A DNA stretch of 10,138 bases, taken from a bacterium (lineage in GTDB: Bacteria; Electryoneota; JAOADG01). The stretch is from NCBI GenBank assembly GCA_026417415.1, contig JAOADG010000011.1:1-10138 (forward strand), read 5' to 3'. Both the position numbers and the translations under genes were made by a program. Below, in pieces: positions 2,850 to 9,152 of the stretch (position 1 is the stretch's first letter; every line of letters begins with the position of its first letter). The notes beneath the pieces were generated by a model. It was not told the origin of the DNA. It searched no databases and saw only the letters and a list, made by a program, of their open reading frames with translations.

Positions 2850-3170
2850 ATGAATCACGAATGGATACAACGATATTTAGATTTAATTTTTGACCCGAAC
2901 CACGTGGGTTTGACCACCGAACAACTGGCTGAGCAAATTGGATGCGATGTGGAATGGTTAGAGCATTTGAACAACGATGATAGATATTGGGTCATTATGG
3001 AGAGGGCTCGCCATAAAATTTTGGAACATATGCCACGTATGTTGGCGGCACTATTAGAAAAAGGGTTAAAAGGGGATGCGACCGTCGTGCGTTTGCTTTG
3101 GATGATGAGCAAACCTGAAACGCAGAAAGGAAAAAAAGCAATTGAAAACGATTTGGACTATTTGGTTTGA
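2850..3170 (+). CDS. Small helix-turn-helix protein, similar in layout to phBC6A51/terminase-small-subunit-like proteins
   Basis: The ATG at 2850 is chosen because AAAGG (2838-2842) lies 7 bases upstream; an earlier in-frame TTG at 2814 has no such site. The product is 106 residues. LTTEQLAEQIGCDVEWLEHL (21-40) reads as a helix-turn-helix: 'x-x-E-x-L-A-E-x-I-G' first helix, turn, then recognition helix. Next come a charged helix with ERARHKILEHMPRML (51-65), then GLKGDATVVRLLWMMS (72-87). The order 'HTH, E-A-R-x-x-x-L, A-L-x-E-K-x-x-K-G-D-x-x-A/V' is that of phBC6A51-type HTH proteins and phage terminase small subunits. DNA binding is inferred; the target is unknown. The gene is convergent with rsmG, overlapping it by 13 bases (3158-3170), and divergent from the GT-C-like gene. 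It stands where parA/parB often follow rsmG. No portal, large terminase or other phage gene is present. Confidence 0.6.
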   Translation: MNHEWIQRYLDLIFDPNHVGLTTEQLAEQIGCDVEWLEHLNNDDRYWVIMERARHKILEHMPRMLAALLEKGLKGDATVVRLLWMMSKPETQKGKKAIENDLDYLV

Positions 3171-3799
3171 TCTTCGTTAGGAGAAAAATTCACTTGAGCA
3201 ACCCAAAGCGCAAGGCCTTGTTCGTTGACGGTTTGACAATGGATCTGAGTAAGTTCTTTGGGCGGTAGGTTGACGGTGCGCTCATTTGAGCCACGAAACA
3301 AAAGAAATAAGGTATCGGGTTTGCAAAATGGGCGCGTCCATTTCCAAATCTCTGGAAGGGGTGCCACCGCACGCGCACTGATGTAATCCACATGAATGGG
3401 GGGATGTTGTTCAACCCGTCCGATAAAAACCGTCGCATTGTGAACACCGACCTGTAAACGAATTCTTTCCAATGTAATGGCTTTTTTACGAACCGTTTCG
3501 GTTAAAATCACCATTATGTTTGGTTGCAAAAGTGCATAGACAAGCCCGGGTATGCCATTTCCCGAACCGACATCCAAAAGTGTTCCTTGTTTTCGGAGAA
3601 ATGGGAGGGCGTACAAAGATTCCAATGCAAGTTTCTTCCACAAGTTATCCACAGAGTTATTTGCATACAAATTTAGTTTACGTCGGTAAAATGTTACGAT
3701 ATTCACTAAATGTTCAATTTTCTCTAAGCAAGAATTGACTTGAATTCCGTGCTCTGAGAGGGTATTTCGGAGGGCAATTGGCAAATCCGTCATAAACAA
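3158..3799 (-). CDS. rsmG: 16S rRNA (guanine527-N7)-methyltransferase RsmG (GidB)
   Basis: The cytoplasmic SAM-dependent methyltransferase modifies the 530 loop of 16S rRNA. The SAM-binding motif LLDVGSGNGIPG (residues 74-85) is clear, followed by a strand ending in T-E (100-101) and VRKKAITLERI, then SARAVAPL (141-148), the family's conserved S-R-A-x-A-P-L equivalent. The N-terminal helices contain KLNLYANNSVDNLW, in the place of the usual N-L-T motif. Length is 213 residues from TTG at 3799 or 211 from ATG at 3793. The ATG gives the normal family start, and neither has a strong Shine-Dalgarno. The gene follows mnmG by 78 bases, a conserved order near bacterial origins. Its 3' end overlaps the convergent HTH gene by 13 bases. 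A perfect DnaA box lies inside it (3645-3653). Confidence 0.93.
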   Translation of the reverse strand: MFMTDLPIALRNTLSEHGIQVNSCLEKIEHLVNIVTFYRRKLNLYANNSVDNLWKKLALESLYALPFLRKQGTLLDVGSGNGIPGLVYALLQPNIMVILTETVRKKAITLERIRLQVGVHNATVFIGRVEQHPPIHVDYISARAVAPLPEIWKWTRPFCKPDTLFLLFRGSNERTVNLPPKELTQIHCQTVNEQGLALWVAQVNFSPNEDQTK

Positions 3800-3855
3800 T
3801 AATCTAACAACTTATCTACAACTTATCAACAACCCGTTCCATGGAGTTATCAACA
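3645..3855. promoter_or_regulatory. Second cluster of DnaA-box-like sequences in rsmG and the mnmG-rsmG gap
   Basis: A perfect TTATCCACA lies at 3645-3653 within rsmG. Three single-mismatch copies follow in the gap: TTATCTACA (3812-3820), TTATCAACA (3823-3831) and TTATCAACA (3847-3855). All four face the same way. The last overlaps a perfect palindrome, CAACATGTTG (3851-3860). These could form a minor part of the origin, titrate DnaA, or regulate rsmG. Function is inferred from sequence alone. Confidence 0.5.
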
Positions 3856-3877: not shown

Positions 3878-5824
3878 CTAATATTCTTGTTCTTCTGATT
3901 TTACCCGCTTTTTTGGCATTGTTTCATGTGAAACATCGCTCTTTTTTGCATCCATTTGTTTTCGTTGGTGCATTTTCAGTGCAGCCAACAACACCAACAC
4001 ATCGGCAGGCGTAACCCCCGGTAATCTACTGGCTTCACCTACAGTGGTCGGCTGTACTCTAAGCAATTGATCCCGCGCTTCTGCCGATATTGCCGGAATC
4101 AATTGATAATCTAGATCCTGTGGAATTGGACGTTGCTCTTCTTCTAACAAACGTTTGACCTGCCGTTTCTCTTTTTCTAAGTAACCATCATAACGCAAAT
4201 GGGTCTCTACCGATTTTCTAAGACGCTCTTCTTTCACGAACGGATGGGTTAATGGCTCTATCGCCAATAGCGTTTCTAAATTGATCCCTTCACGCTGAAG
4301 TGCTTGCTTCCAAGTCATGGTTTTACCGTGAAGACGTATGGTTTTTTTCTGTAACCATTGTACTGCATCGCGAACCATCCGCTCACGCTCTTGATAACGT
4401 TCATACACGGCCTCACTCACCAAACCTAAACTCTTTCCATAGTGCAACAACCGTTCCGCAGCAGTATCCATTCGTAACAATAAACGGTGTTCAGCACGTG
4501 AAGTAAACATACGATATGGTTCTTCCGGCACACGCAACCGTAGGTCATCGCAAAGGACACCGATGTATGCTTCATCTCTACGCAAAACAAACGGGGGCTT
4601 TCCCATCAACTTCAAAGCAGCATTGACACCCGCATGAAACCCTTGTGCAGCTGCCTCTTCATAACCGCTGGTACCATTCAGTTGTCCCGCAAAATAAAGC
4701 CCCTCTACCATTCGAGTTTCAAAAGTCGGTAACAGCATTTCTGCAGGAATGGCGTCGTATTCAACTGCATAACCAAAACGAGCAATTTCACAGCGTTCTA
4801 ATCCTGTAATGGTGCGTATGGCTGCATATTGGACCTCTTCAGGTAAAGAAGATGAAAATCCATTGATATACATCCATGGGTGATGAACCCCTTCCGGTTC
4901 TATAAACAATTGATGGCTATCTCGTTCTGCAAAACGGTGGACTTTGTCTTCTATGCTTGGGCAATATCTCGGACCTATCCCTTTGATTCGACCCGTAAAC
5001 ATAGGCGATCGGTCAAACCCCTTTTCCAATTCTGTATGGGTCCGTGCATTGGTACGAGTAATCCAACATGGCAGTTGAGGAAGCGTCGGGGCTTGGGTAA
5101 GGATATGAAAAAAGGTCGGTTCTGGATCACCATCTTGCCTTTGGCAAGCGTCATAATCAATGGTTTCTTTTTTTATGCGGGGGGGTGTCCCTGTCTTCAA
5201 ACGGATAAGCCGAAAACCGAGATGTTTCAGATCATCGGACAGTGAGTAGGATCCAACCTCACCAAACCGACCTGCCGGCTGGCTCCATTCACCACAATGG
5301 ATGATTCCCCCTAAGAAAGTACCTGTTGCTAAAACAACCGCCTTGCACTCCACTTCACCCAACTTTGAAAGTTGTACCCCGATGATTTTTTTCAGTTTGA
5401 TGTTGCTCTTATCTTCAATTGGTGAAGGTTGGATTGGTGGCTCTGTAATTAAGTGCAATACTTCATCTTCAAGGATGGTGAGACGGGGTGTTTGTTTCAA
5501 AATGGTTTGTGAAAGAGTGGAATAGGCCTCTTTATCCGATTGGCATCTTGGACCCCATACTGCAGGCCCTTTAGAACGATTGAGCAAACGAAACTGGATC
5601 GCAGTTTGGTCTGCAAGGATAGGCATTAACCCTCCGAGAGCATCCAGTTCCACGACCAAATGACCTTTGGCAAGTCCGCCGATCGCTGGGTTGCAAGACA
5701 TCCTTCCGATGGCTTGTTGGTTTTGTGTTACCAAAAGGGTTTGAAAGCCCATGCGTGCGGTCGCATAAGACGCTTCAATCCCTGCGTGCCCACCTCCTAC
5801 CACCACCACATCTGCTTTTATCAA
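3878..5824 (-). CDS. mnmG: tRNA uridine-5-carboxymethylaminomethyl modification enzyme MnmG (GidA)
   Basis: This FAD- and NADH-dependent enzyme works with MnmE to install the cmnm5 group on wobble U34 of certain tRNAs. The protein has 648 residues, slightly longer than usual. It has the N-terminal FAD site GGGHAGIEAS (10-19), SCNPAIGGLAKGHL (43-56), NRSKGPAVWGPRCQSD (82-97), KTGTPPRI (210-217), GPRYCPSIEDK (284-294), GQLNGTSGYEEAAAQG (380-395) and EPYRMFTSRAEHR (435-447). The C-terminal MnmE-binding region ends with a Lys/Glu-rich tail of about 25 residues. The start is TTG at 5822-5824, supported by AAAGGGG (5833-5839) at 8-base spacing and the family's usual N-terminus. It lies 48 bases after mnmE in the same direction, so it is probably co-transcribed. 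A parS-like site overlaps codons about 630-635, and another lies just before the Shine-Dalgarno. GC near 47% in sampled lines contrasts with mnmE. Confidence 0.97.
   Translation of the reverse strand: MIKADVVVVGGGHAGIEASYATARMGFQTLLVTQNQQAIGRMSCNPAIGGLAKGHLVVELDALGGLMPILADQTAIQFRLLNRSKGPAVWGPRCQSDKEAYSTLSQTILKQTPRLTILEDEVLHLITEPPIQPSPIEDKSNIKLKKIIGVQLSKLGEVECKAVVLATGTFLGGIIHCGEWSQPAGRFGEVGSYSLSDDLKHLGFRLIRLKTGTPPRIKKETIDYDACQRQDGDPEPTFFHILTQAPTLPQLPCWITRTNARTHTELEKGFDRSPMFTGRIKGIGPRYCPSIEDKVHRFAERDSHQLFIEPEGVHHPWMYINGFSSSLPEEVQYAAIRTITGLERCEIARFGYAVEYDAIPAEMLLPTFETRMVEGLYFAGQLNGTSGYEEAAAQGFHAGVNAALKLMGKPPFVLRRDEAYIGVLCDDLRLRVPEEPYRMFTSRAEHRLLLRMDTAAERLLHYGKSLGLVSEAVYERYQERERMVRDAVQWLQKKTIRLHGKTMTWKQALQREGINLETLLAIEPLTHPFVKEERLRKSVETHLRYDGYLEKEKRQVKRLLEEEQRPIPQDLDYQLIPAISAEARDQLLRVQPTTVGEASRLPGVTPADVLVLLAALKMHQRKQMDAKKSDVSHETMPKKRVKSEEQEY
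3920..3935. promoter_or_regulatory. Probable parS site (one central mismatch) inside the 3' end of mnmG
   Basis: TGTTTCATGTGAAACA matches the ParB-binding consensus TGTTTCACGTGAAACA at 15 of 16 positions; the mismatch is in the centre. It encodes S-H-E-T of the MnmG tail (residues 632-635). Overlap with a coding region is normal for chromosomal parS. It lies about 3.6 kb from the DnaA-box cluster. Confidence 0.75.
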
Positions 5825-5841: not shown

Positions 5842-5857
5842 TGTTTCACGTGAAACC
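5842..5857. promoter_or_regulatory. Probable parS site in the mnmE-mnmG gap
   Basis: TGTTTCACGTGAAACC matches the consensus TGTTTCACGTGAAACA at 15 of 16 positions, with the perfect GTTTCACGTGAAAC palindromic core. ParB (Spo0J) loads here and spreads to organise the origin for segregation. It lies between mnmE and mnmG, 2 bases upstream of the mnmG Shine-Dalgarno and about 1.7 kb from the oriC candidate. No parA or parB gene is in the window. Confidence 0.87.
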
Positions 5858-5872
5858 TATCCATTTTCTTTG

Positions 5873-7303
5873 CTATTTACCAATACAAAAATGTTGAAAA
5901 ATATGCTGTAGAACACTCTCTTTTACATTTTTCCCAATCATTGCACCCAACTCTTCTAAAGCCATACGCAACTCAAACGCAATAAACTCTGTTGATTGTT
6001 CTCCTTTTTTAAGCCAATTCAAACTGTTTCTAATGTTATGAATGGCTTTGGTAAAATGTTGATGATGCCTTTCGTTTACTAAAAAATGTAATTCGGTTTT
6101 TTGTAGTTCCGTTTTCTCTTTGACCCAATTTTGTATCTTGGTCTTTAATTTTTCTACATTAGTCCCATATTTTGCTGAAATAAACAGAACATTATCATAT
6201 TTTCGTAATTTCATAAATGTGGTTTTGTCTAGTTTATCTACTTTATTGACCACTAACCAAACCTTTTGTGAATTCTTACTGATCAGTTTTTGATACTGAT
6301 TTTGAATGCTCGGTTGGAGAAAATGAATCTTTTGAGGACTATGAAATTGAATCTTTTCTATTGGTACCAAAAATAAAATGAGATCTGCTTGTTGGATAAT
6401 GTCTTCACTTCTTCTTATTCCCTCTTTTTCAATTTGGTTTTCTGCTTTTCTTAAACCGGCAGTATCTACTACTCGAACCGGTATCCCTTCAAAATGCAGC
6501 TCTGCATCAATAAAATCACGGGTAGTACCAGGTATCTCAGATACGATTGCTCGCTCTTCAAGTAAAAGTTTGTTTAACAAAGAAGATTTTCCTGCATTGA
6601 CTGGACCAGTCAAAGCAATGGTGATCTTGTTTTGTGTTTGTTTGCTTATTCTGTACTGGTTTTCTAATTGGATAAGTTGCTTTTCAATCTCTTTTAGTTT
6701 TAATCTCATTTTATCAACATCCAATATGGGTACATCATCTTCGGAAAAATCTAAAGATAACTCAATTAATGATAAAATTTCTTGGATTTTCAGTGTAAGG
6801 TTATCTACATATTGATGTAATTCACCTTTCATCAACCCTAATGCCAATTGTTGTTGAGTTTGGTTTTGCGCTTGGATAAACTCGCCTATCCCTTCTGCTT
6901 GTTCTAAAGTAATCTTTCCATTCCAAAATGCCCTTAACGTAAACTCACCTTGTGTGGCCATTCGTGCACCATATTGTTGTAAAATTTTGAGCAATTCATT
7001 TATAATTCTTGGTGAACCGTGAATTGAAAACTCTACCATATCTTGACCAGTATAAGAAAACGGCTTTCTAAAAAATAAAACCATTGCTTGATCCAAAAGT
7101 TCACCATTTGGTTTCCATAACGTTTTCAAATGTACGCTACGAACGTTTTGGAGGGACTCTTCCTCTAACTTTTTCTTAAACAACTTTTGTGCTAATTCAA
7201 AACAACCATTTCCACTTAAGCGAACCACTGCAAGGGCTGATACACCTGGGACAGTTGCTAAAGCACAAATGGGATCATTTAAATTGGGTAATAGACGCAT
7301 CAT
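5873..7303 (-). CDS. mnmE: tRNA modification GTPase MnmE (TrmE)
   Basis: Partner of MnmG in U34 modification. The 476-residue protein has the complete family layout. An N-terminal formyl-tetrahydrofolate-binding domain (about 1-120) begins with DPICALATVPGVSALAVVRLSG (10-31). A helical domain carries an inserted G domain: G1 GPVNAGKS (233-240), G2 EIPGTTRDF (256-264), G3 DTAG (280-283), G4 NKVD (353-356) and G5 SAK (376-378). The C-terminus is F-C-I-G-K with catalytic C473. Two consecutive ATGs (7301-7303 and 7298-7300) follow AAAGGTG (7308-7314); the first is used here. It is first in the mnmE-mnmG-rsmG unit and read away from the origin. Sampled lines give 23-32% GC against about 47% in mnmG, and the protein is rich in Lys, Gln and Asn, a notable contrast between functional partners. 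Confidence 0.97.
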   Translation of the reverse strand: MMRLLPNLNDPICALATVPGVSALAVVRLSGNGCFELAQKLFKKKLEEESLQNVRSVHLKTLWKPNGELLDQAMVLFFRKPFSYTGQDMVEFSIHGSPRIINELLKILQQYGARMATQGEFTLRAFWNGKITLEQAEGIGEFIQAQNQTQQQLALGLMKGELHQYVDNLTLKIQEILSLIELSLDFSEDDVPILDVDKMRLKLKEIEKQLIQLENQYRISKQTQNKITIALTGPVNAGKSSLLNKLLLEERAIVSEIPGTTRDFIDAELHFEGIPVRVVDTAGLRKAENQIEKEGIRRSEDIIQQADLILFLVPIEKIQFHSPQKIHFLQPSIQNQYQKLISKNSQKVWLVVNKVDKLDKTTFMKLRKYDNVLFISAKYGTNVEKLKTKIQNWVKEKTELQKTELHFLVNERHHQHFTKAIHNIRNSLNWLKKGEQSTEFIAFELRMALEELGAMIGKNVKESVLQHIFQHFCIGK

Positions 7304-7351: not shown

Positions 7352-7439
7352 GTTTTGTTCCTTGTCCTGAATGTTTATTGAAGGATTTGTTTTGTATGGT
7401 TCATTCAGTCAAAAATGAACACAAACGTTTTTGACTTAT

Positions 7440-7700
7440 TCACTCTTCTTCTTCTTTTCTTTTAAGATTTTAATAAAGAGGATTATGATAATATCGGTGG
7501 ATAATGTGGATAATTTTTTTCAACATACCATTTTGTTAACATGTATGCCCTTTTCGTTGAATGTACCTTAAAAAATTGTTGTGGATTTCGTTGTGAAGAT
7601 TTTGTTGATAAATATCCATTTATTCACAAGCACATTTAATGTTGTGGATAAGTCGTATTTTATCCACATTTATCCACATGTAATTTTTTCTTTGTGAAGA
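7440..7700. other. oriC: Putative chromosomal replication origin (oriC): DnaA-box cluster in AT-rich DNA
   Basis: Perfect 9-base DnaA boxes lie at 7505-7513 (minus), 7643-7651 (minus), 7660-7668 (plus) and 7670-7678 (plus). TTATTCACA at 7620-7628 fits the looser TTATNCACA. One-mismatch copies are GGTGGATAA (7496-7504, touching the first box) and TGTTGATAA (7603-7611). The pair at 7643/7660 faces head to head with 8 bases between. GC is 28% over 7441-7740. The stretch 7461-7495, next to the first boxes, is particularly AT-rich and is a candidate unwinding element. No gene fits 7304-7949. Flanking genes are read outward on both sides, and mnmE-mnmG-rsmG with nearby parS sites is a typical origin context. 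Whether this is the active origin needs skew or experimental data, because dnaA is not in the window. Confidence 0.82.
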
Positions 7701-7949: not shown

Positions 7950-9152
7950 ATGAACGATCCACAAACTACTTGGCTTGATCGCATTTCCATTCTTGCCAAA
8001 TACCGTACATTCTTGCTTCGCTGGCTTTTTCTTTGGATTGTGATCGGCATAATCAGTTTTTTTGTCTGGCCCCGTAAATATCGTGCAGAAACCAGTTTTT
8101 TGCCACCTGTAGAAGAAAACATCGGTCTTTTTGGATCTTTAAGCATGGCTATGCGCTTGGGCAACTCGTCTGACATCCAAGGCAGTGGATTTATTCCAAT
8201 CCTTCGTTCCAAACGCTTGAAGGACTCTTTAGATAAGACCTACAATTTTCGCAAACGATACAAAGAAAAAAAGTTAGATCGCGCCTATAAGGCCTTTGAC
8301 CGTAAATTAGAAATAGATATGGAATTGGAAGAAGGCATCGGCGCTAACTACATCTACGCATTTTATATCCGTGTAACGGACAAAGATCCTAAAGAGGCCG
8401 CCAACATTGCCAACGACTTGGTGTTCTACGCCGATCGCATTGCTGCTGAACTGACTACTCAGCGTCAACGTCAAATTCGTGAATTTCTGGAAAAGCGCCT
8501 TGCTGAAGCGCGTGATTCACTTAGTGCTATAGAAGATTCGTTGAAGAATTTTTCTATTCGTACCGGTGTAGTTGTTCCCACGGATCAAATCTCTGCTACA
8601 GTGAAATTGTTAGGTGAATTGGAAACGCAGATCGCATCCTCCGAAGTTGAACTAACGGTAGCAAAAACCACCTACGGAGAACGCCATCCTAGCGTTCAAA
8701 CCATAGAAGCCAAATTGGATGAATTGAAAAAACAGCGTAGCGCCATGTTGGGCAATGTGGATTACGAAATCGGTAAAAGTTTGCTCAAACTGAAACAATC
8801 ACCGGAATACCTTTTAGAGCATACGCGTCTCTATCGTGAAACTACCTCGCGCACGATTACTGTGCAGTTTTTAGAAAAACAGTTAGAGCAAGCACGCATT
8901 AACGAGCAGCGTGATGCACCTGTGTTGCGCATTTTGGATCGTGCTGTACCACCAGAAACACGCATATGGCCAATTTTTACACTAATGGTCTTATTGGGTC
9001 TTTTGTTTGGTGCACTTTCTGCATTCATCTGGATCGGTTGGAAAGAGTGGCTTGTAAGCATTCAACAAACCCAATTTTCAGAACATTTCCAACAAATTTC
9101 AAAAGATTTTTCTTTATCTGCATTATGGAAAGCATTTCGTGGTAAAAGCTAA
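7950..9152 (+). CDS. Wzz-type polysaccharide chain-length regulator (polysaccharide co-polymerase)
   Basis: Inner-membrane protein controlling the length of O-antigen or a related surface polysaccharide. The 400-residue product has TM1 at about 22-40 followed by P-R-K-Y-R-A-E-T-S-F, the usual start of the Wzz domain. A long periplasmic region includes coiled-coil helices, with QRQRQIREFLEKRLAEARD then the GNVR-like segment GERHPSVQTIEAKLDELKKQ. P-P-E-T-R-I-W-P then leads into TM2 (about 342-364), the proline-rich signature that precedes the second helix. The cytoplasmic tail is about 33 residues without Walker motifs or a Tyr cluster, so it is not a Wzc-type kinase fusion. The ATG at 7950 is preferred because AAGGA (7941-7945) lies upstream; the in-frame TTG at 7899 adds 17 residues unlike the family. 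TATAAC at 7826-7831 could be a weak -10 box. It is read away from the origin, and the next gene starts 30 bases downstream. Confidence 0.85.
   Translation: MNDPQTTWLDRISILAKYRTFLLRWLFLWIVIGIISFFVWPRKYRAETSFLPPVEENIGLFGSLSMAMRLGNSSDIQGSGFIPILRSKRLKDSLDKTYNFRKRYKEKKLDRAYKAFDRKLEIDMELEEGIGANYIYAFYIRVTDKDPKEAANIANDLVFYADRIAAELTTQRQRQIREFLEKRLAEARDSLSAIEDSLKNFSIRTGVVVPTDQISATVKLLGELETQIASSEVELTVAKTTYGERHPSVQTIEAKLDELKKQRSAMLGNVDYEIGKSLLKLKQSPEYLLEHTRLYRETTSRTITVQFLEKQLEQARINEQRDAPVLRILDRAVPPETRIWPIFTLMVLLGLLFGALSAFIWIGWKEWLVSIQQTQFSEHFQQISKDFSLSALWKAFRGKS

Follow-up and report, generated by a model that had tools for sequence, protein, structure and literature searches.

The window analysed here is the whole of contig C28, 10,138 bp in length, which belongs to a draft genome of 2.21 Mb in 40 contigs. 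Its minus strand carries rsmG (gidB; 3158-3799, Pfam GidB), mnmG (gidA; 3878-5824, Pfam GIDA) and mnmE (5873-7303, Pfam MnmE_helical and TrmE_N), and mnmE flanks a cluster of DnaA boxes that we consider to be a candidate chromosomal origin. The right-hand neighbour of this cluster is a plus-strand gene for a Wzz/BexC-like polysaccharide co-polymerase (7950-9152), which matches TIGR01010 at 2e-16, below the cut-off of that model, and Wzc structures at 6e-5, and which starts at either ATG 7950 or TTG 7899. As an earlier note on this DNA had claimed, the genes on both sides diverge, with mnmE and the polysaccharide gene each pointing away from the boxes. At the left end of the contig lies a DUF4411 (PIN-like) protein (90-587), which may be the toxin half of a toxin-antitoxin pair truncated where the contig ends. 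It is followed by a membrane-like frame of 626 amino acids without a family match (915-2795), in which unusual internal segments of raised GC (about 52%) look like other DNA inserted in frame. An Rfam scan of the window returned no match. When MnmE was used to scan genome contigs, the matches came from distant bacteria only, and protein ends resembling sorting domains may point to the Bacteroidota side of the tree.

DnaA boxes and a predicted unwinding element

The four perfect and three near-match DnaA boxes within 183 bases that the earlier note reported were all recovered, spanning positions 7496 to 7678. On the left, a perfect box TTATCCACA (7505-7513, minus strand) is followed without a gap by a one-mismatch box TTATCCACC (7496-7504, minus strand), forming a tandem pair. 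The right-hand group consists of two one-mismatch boxes, TTATCAACA (7603-7611, minus strand) and TTATTCACA (7620-7628, plus strand), and three further perfect copies of TTATCCACA, at 7643-7651 on the minus strand and at 7660-7668 and 7670-7678 on the plus strand. The GC content of 28% given previously holds for 7440-7700 (28.0%) and does not hold for the 183 bp proper (30.1%). Similarly, the expectation of one perfect box per 131 kb was too low a frequency, as the genome-wide count amounts to one per 57 kb.

Despite this higher background, the cluster stands out. The window holds 18 boxes with at most one mismatch, compared to 3.2 +/- 1.8 in dinucleotide shuffles, none of which reached 18 (0/200). 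Across the 2.21 Mb, perfect boxes are no more numerous than matches to a reversed-pattern control (39 and 40, respectively), and a scan of the whole draft genome found more than two of them close together only at 7496-7678; clusters of four boxes in 174 bp are expected about 2e-7 times genome-wide. A second cluster of perfect boxes was thus not found anywhere in the genome in this search, which was limited to consensus boxes. The next-best pair of perfect boxes, an inverted one on contig C31 (G000:C31:24654-24681; L005:10655-10682), was rejected as a DnaA site, as it forms a hairpin with a T run directly behind it and is probably an intrinsic terminator that appears as a false positive in box searches. 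A perfect box at 3645 was likewise discounted, as it lies inside the rsmG coding sequence.

The DNA next to the tandem pair has the properties of an unwinding region. Nearest-neighbour energies place the least stable 60 bp of the contig at 7435-7494 (21.7% GC), which we designate the predicted DNA unwinding element, and the least stable 40 bp at 7454-7493 (17.5% GC); both windows directly abut the pair 7505/7496 on its left, and this AT-rich element sits in the non-coding spacer between mnmE and wzz. Within it, on the strand of the boxes (minus), seven consecutive T-centred triplets occupy 7472-7492 (ATT, ATC, ATA, ATC, CTC, TTT and ATT, in NTN form), and these equate to seven DnaA-trios of NAN form. 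They are separated from the perfect box at 7505 by a 12 bp spacer and run into the unstable DNA. Runs of at least seven trios follow only 0.4% of 263 other boxes sampled in this genome and occur in 0.055% of shuffles of the local DNA. The search rule for the basal unwinding system calls for a box and at least three NAN trios, separated by no more than 16 bp, with spacer lengths peaking at 10-13 bp (PMC8287927); the seven trios and 12 bp spacer found here agree with that rule, and no trio is exactly of the GAT consensus. The triplets also differ from the CTA form found between dnaA and dnaN in several relatives and, for this reason, we regard the trio run as moderate evidence for an origin. The unwinding element and the box cluster together make up the predicted core oriC (7435-7678), the sole such cluster in the genome.

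Location of dnaA, dnaN, parS sites and skew

The absence of the usual neighbours was correctly noted before: dnaA is on contig C19, where it is flanked by saccharopine-dehydrogenase-like and peroxiredoxin-like genes, and yidC is on C13, where rnpA is not its neighbour, so that neither dnaA nor yidC is on the contig studied here. The dnaN gene is found on a 4.6 kb contig, C35, adjoining a subtilisin-like gene and likewise lacking boxes (the '-like' names at the dnaA and dnaN loci come from our reading of the translations). The cluster at 7496-7678 therefore adjoins neither dnaA nor dnaN, adjacency to which is a common but not a defining trait of oriC. A stronger box cluster beside dnaA, named in the earlier note as an observation that would count against the present site, is absent, with no box of up to two mismatches in the 460 bp around and upstream of the dnaA start, and there is likewise no box cluster upstream of dnaN on C35.

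The putative centromere is close at hand. With up to one mismatch allowed, parS-like sites number just two in the genome, and C28 carries both of them, one at either end of mnmG: TGTTTCACGTGAAACC where mnmE and mnmG meet (5842-5857) and TGTTTCATGTGAAACA in the 3' end of mnmG (3920-3935). Sites of this type mostly lie within the 20% of the chromosome around oriC (PMC7022226), and their presence here at 3920 and 5842 is a usual, not strictly defining, trait of an origin region. Relatives also have perfect or near-perfect parS sites at or near the mnmE-mnmG junction. The parA and parB genes are on contig C38, at about 822 kb, and are not adjacent to the parS-like sites.

GC skew was examined on C38, which represents 41% of the genome, in 10-20 kb segments taken at intervals of about 22 kb. 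In its right part all genes are on the minus strand, and the skew falls towards the right end, the location of the ribosomal S10/spc genes, reaching -0.19 there. Because minus-strand genes and a skew falling to -0.19 both lead towards that end, the C38 data place an origin beyond it; a strong switch from minus to plus was not seen in the sampled parts of this contig. At about 700 kb, C38 switches abruptly from positive skew and plus-strand genes to negative skew and minus-strand genes, which resembles a terminus or an inversion boundary. A comparison of contig ends found no overlap by which C28 could be joined to C38 or to another of the ends compared. Skew does not visibly switch inside C28, third-position skew being -0.14 to the left of the cluster and -0.13 to its right, where only 2.5 kb is available.

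Gene order in the phylum and the mnmG-rsmG spacer

We searched forty further genomes and read the gene order where the stretch allowed. Members of the phylum usually have rsmG-mnmG-mnmE-yidC-rnpA, then further along dnaA and dnaN with DnaA boxes between them; dnaN directly follows dnaA at 28 of the 29 phylum dnaA loci that were fetched, and most of these loci have DnaA boxes in the dnaA-dnaN spacer, with CTACTACTA-type trios in several. In G003, a nearly complete relative, skew turns from negative to positive around dnaA, and the origin in most relatives seems to lie between dnaA and dnaN. Since the usual phylum order keeps the boxes between these two genes, the gene order at the predicted origin of the present genome is derived, which bears out the suggestion of the earlier note that the site reflects a rearrangement or a lineage-specific order.

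The only same-family genome compared, G001, has an intermediate arrangement in which rsmG-mnmG-mnmE is followed at some distance by dnaN, a spacer with boxes, and dciA, and dnaA is gone from the site. When the 48 bp block comprising the tandem pair and the trios was compared with the 20 kb G001 locus, the best ungapped match, at 32 of 48 positions, was the spacer just upstream of dnaN; shuffled versions of the block (n=40) reached at most 28. On the G001 contig, GC skew crosses from negative to positive values no more than a few kb from the dnaN-dciA spacer. From these two genomes we infer, as the simplest history, that dnaA left before the lineages of G001 and the present genome split and that dnaN left in the present one.

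The searches also brought up other groups of boxes. G018 and G030, which belong to one family, have a DnaA-box cluster between apparently homologous genes away from dnaA (L140:9417-9613 and L141:2810-2938), which might be a DnaA-binding locus peculiar to that family. In another family, two genomes carry tandem perfect DnaA boxes inside similar lpxK-like coding sequences (L142:9764-9784 and L143:8036-8056). In G040, an unrelated genome of 1.2 Mb, several perfect DnaA boxes at C2:965006-965200 lie about 594 kb from dnaA (C2:370 kb) and apparently mark another origin parted from that gene.

The window contains a second group of boxes, three one-mismatch copies starting at 3812, 3823 and 3847 (3812-3855, plus strand), in the mnmG-rsmG spacer and antisense to the genes. 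When the spacer was compared across 28 phylum genomes, an antisense DnaA box turned up in 21 of them, the present genome and G001 included, and a sense box in none; after shuffling of the spacers, a mean of 0.6 and at most 4 contained a box. Four further genomes, which come from one family and have long spacers, lack a box there, bringing the overall count to 21 of 32. In other phyla with mnmG next to rsmG, 10 of 11 loci are without a spacer box, and the eleventh has one box on the other strand. The rsmG start codons that bound these spacers were picked by hand from the open frames. In some genomes the box variant seems to be the same in the mnmG-rsmG spacer as in the dnaA-dnaN spacer (TTTTCCACA or TTATCAACA), which suggests that the same protein reads both. 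These boxes, for which we found no earlier description in the literature searched, may constitute a DnaA control site.

Given that the mnmG-rsmG boxes are conserved across the phylum on one strand only, and that two-part origins are known in B. subtilis (PMC5295017), we considered an origin whose two parts, the boxes at 3812-3855 and the cluster at 7435-7678, would act jointly and enclose the mnmE-mnmG block with its parS sites. We judge this to be unlikely. The mnmG-rsmG boxes also occur in relatives whose likely origin is between dnaA and dnaN, several kb off, and those in the window are without a long trio run; because they are present where the origin is kilobases away and lack such a run, they look like a separate DnaA site.

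Interpretation and comparison with known systems

Taken together, the comparisons favour an origin in the spacer between mnmE and the Wzz gene, as the earlier note had proposed. The sole perfect-box cluster of the genome, the layout of boxes, trio run and unstable DNA, the match to G001, both parS-like sites on the same contig and the lack of clusters at dnaA and dnaN lead us to conclude that this region is very probably the chromosomal oriC, in a gene neighbourhood derived in this lineage. In such an origin, DnaA would bind the right-hand cluster at 7603-7678 and the tandem pair 7505/7496, and from the pair a DnaA oligomer would spread leftwards onto the trios at 7492-7472. The AT-rich DNA at 7435-7494 would presumably be opened by DnaA and would then be the place at which helicase is loaded, and ParB bound to parS about 1.6 and 3.6 kb away could help part the duplicated origins. 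As to how the arrangement arose, dnaA and then dnaN, an order that we infer, would have moved away, and the origin would have remained with the parS-bearing mnmE-mnmG-rsmG block and ended up beside the polysaccharide gene.

The main rival to this reading is that the boxes form a titrating or regulatory cluster upstream of mnmE that is not an origin, a type to which datA, DARS and the jag-trmE cluster belong. Such a site has a precedent in B. subtilis, whose DnaA has a strong binding region between jag and trmE (mnmE) (PMC4447404). In Listeria ilorinensis, too, the DNA preceding mnmE holds five boxes within 110 bp; the cluster at this place in Bacilli is not their origin. However, the phylum relatives examined have no box cluster directly upstream of mnmE, so the present one is not an inherited, mnmE-linked feature. 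In addition, the run of trios, the DNA of low stability and the similarity to the spacer on the dnaN side in G001 exceed what a mere binding cluster would have, and G001 shares the unwinding block but has it beside another gene. Neither the genome-wide scan for consensus boxes nor the dnaA and dnaN loci yielded a further origin candidate. We therefore hold the binding-cluster explanation to be distinctly improbable. A DnaA-box cluster at gidB in Bacillus found no support and was set aside; the cluster that has been described is the one at jag-trmE.

Very improbable, in our estimation, is an assembly error that joins mnmE, the box cluster and the polysaccharide gene and gives a true origin the wrong neighbours. 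The assembly is a draft of 40 contigs, C28 is only 10 kb long and a second strain was not found. Nevertheless, no part of C28 is repeated elsewhere in the genome, dnaA and dnaN each have other neighbours on their own contigs, and the unwinding element is on the mnmE side and faces mnmE, just as the G001 block faces dnaN and mnmE. The idea that the inverted boxes act in transcription, as terminators or as promoter elements and not as DnaA sites, which recalls the hairpin and T run of the one further inverted pair of the genome, that on C31, carries a negligible probability, as the region is upstream of two divergent genes so that no transcript needs to end there, and as the seven boxes are of mixed orientation, with the inverted pair followed by a further box and not directly by a T run.

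With the region read as oriC, the analysis provides a predicted origin for a little-studied phylum, whose members display successive stages: an origin between dnaA and dnaN in most, one beside dnaN without dnaA in G001, and one with neither gene here. This raises the question of what keeps an origin where it is after dnaA has departed, for which the parS block is a suggested answer. More tentatively, and as a possibility that we would not call probable, oriC may have lost first dnaA and then dnaN and yet stayed anchored to the parS-bearing mnmE-mnmG-rsmG block, in a phylum where a second conserved DnaA station, formed by the one-sided boxes directly before rsmG, would link the control of initiation to the centromere region.

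Origins parted from dnaA are already well known, for example in Escherichia coli, where oriC is beside mnmG (gidA) and mioC and 44 kb from dnaA (PMC5295017). As in E. coli, the boxes of the predicted origin form one undivided cluster, accompanied by unwinding DNA that is AT-rich, which lies apart from dnaA and on the side of mnmG. The predicted origin is unlike that of E. coli in that its neighbours are mnmE and a polysaccharide gene and that dnaN is displaced as well, with dnaA and dnaN on different contigs. It resembles the jag-trmE cluster of B. subtilis (PMC4447404) in placing DnaA boxes upstream of mnmE, although that cluster belongs to Bacilli, is not an origin and is unmatched at this place in the phylum relatives. 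With the dnaA-dnaN origin of B. subtilis (PMC8287927) it shares tandem boxes, a short spacer, trio repeats and AT-rich DNA, whereas its trios deviate from the GAT consensus and neither dnaA nor dnaN is at the site. Finally, it differs from the predicted dnaN-dciA origin of G001 in that dnaN, kept beside the origin there, is gone here, but the two have in common a similar 48 bp unwinding block, the same orientation towards mnmE and the departure of dnaA.
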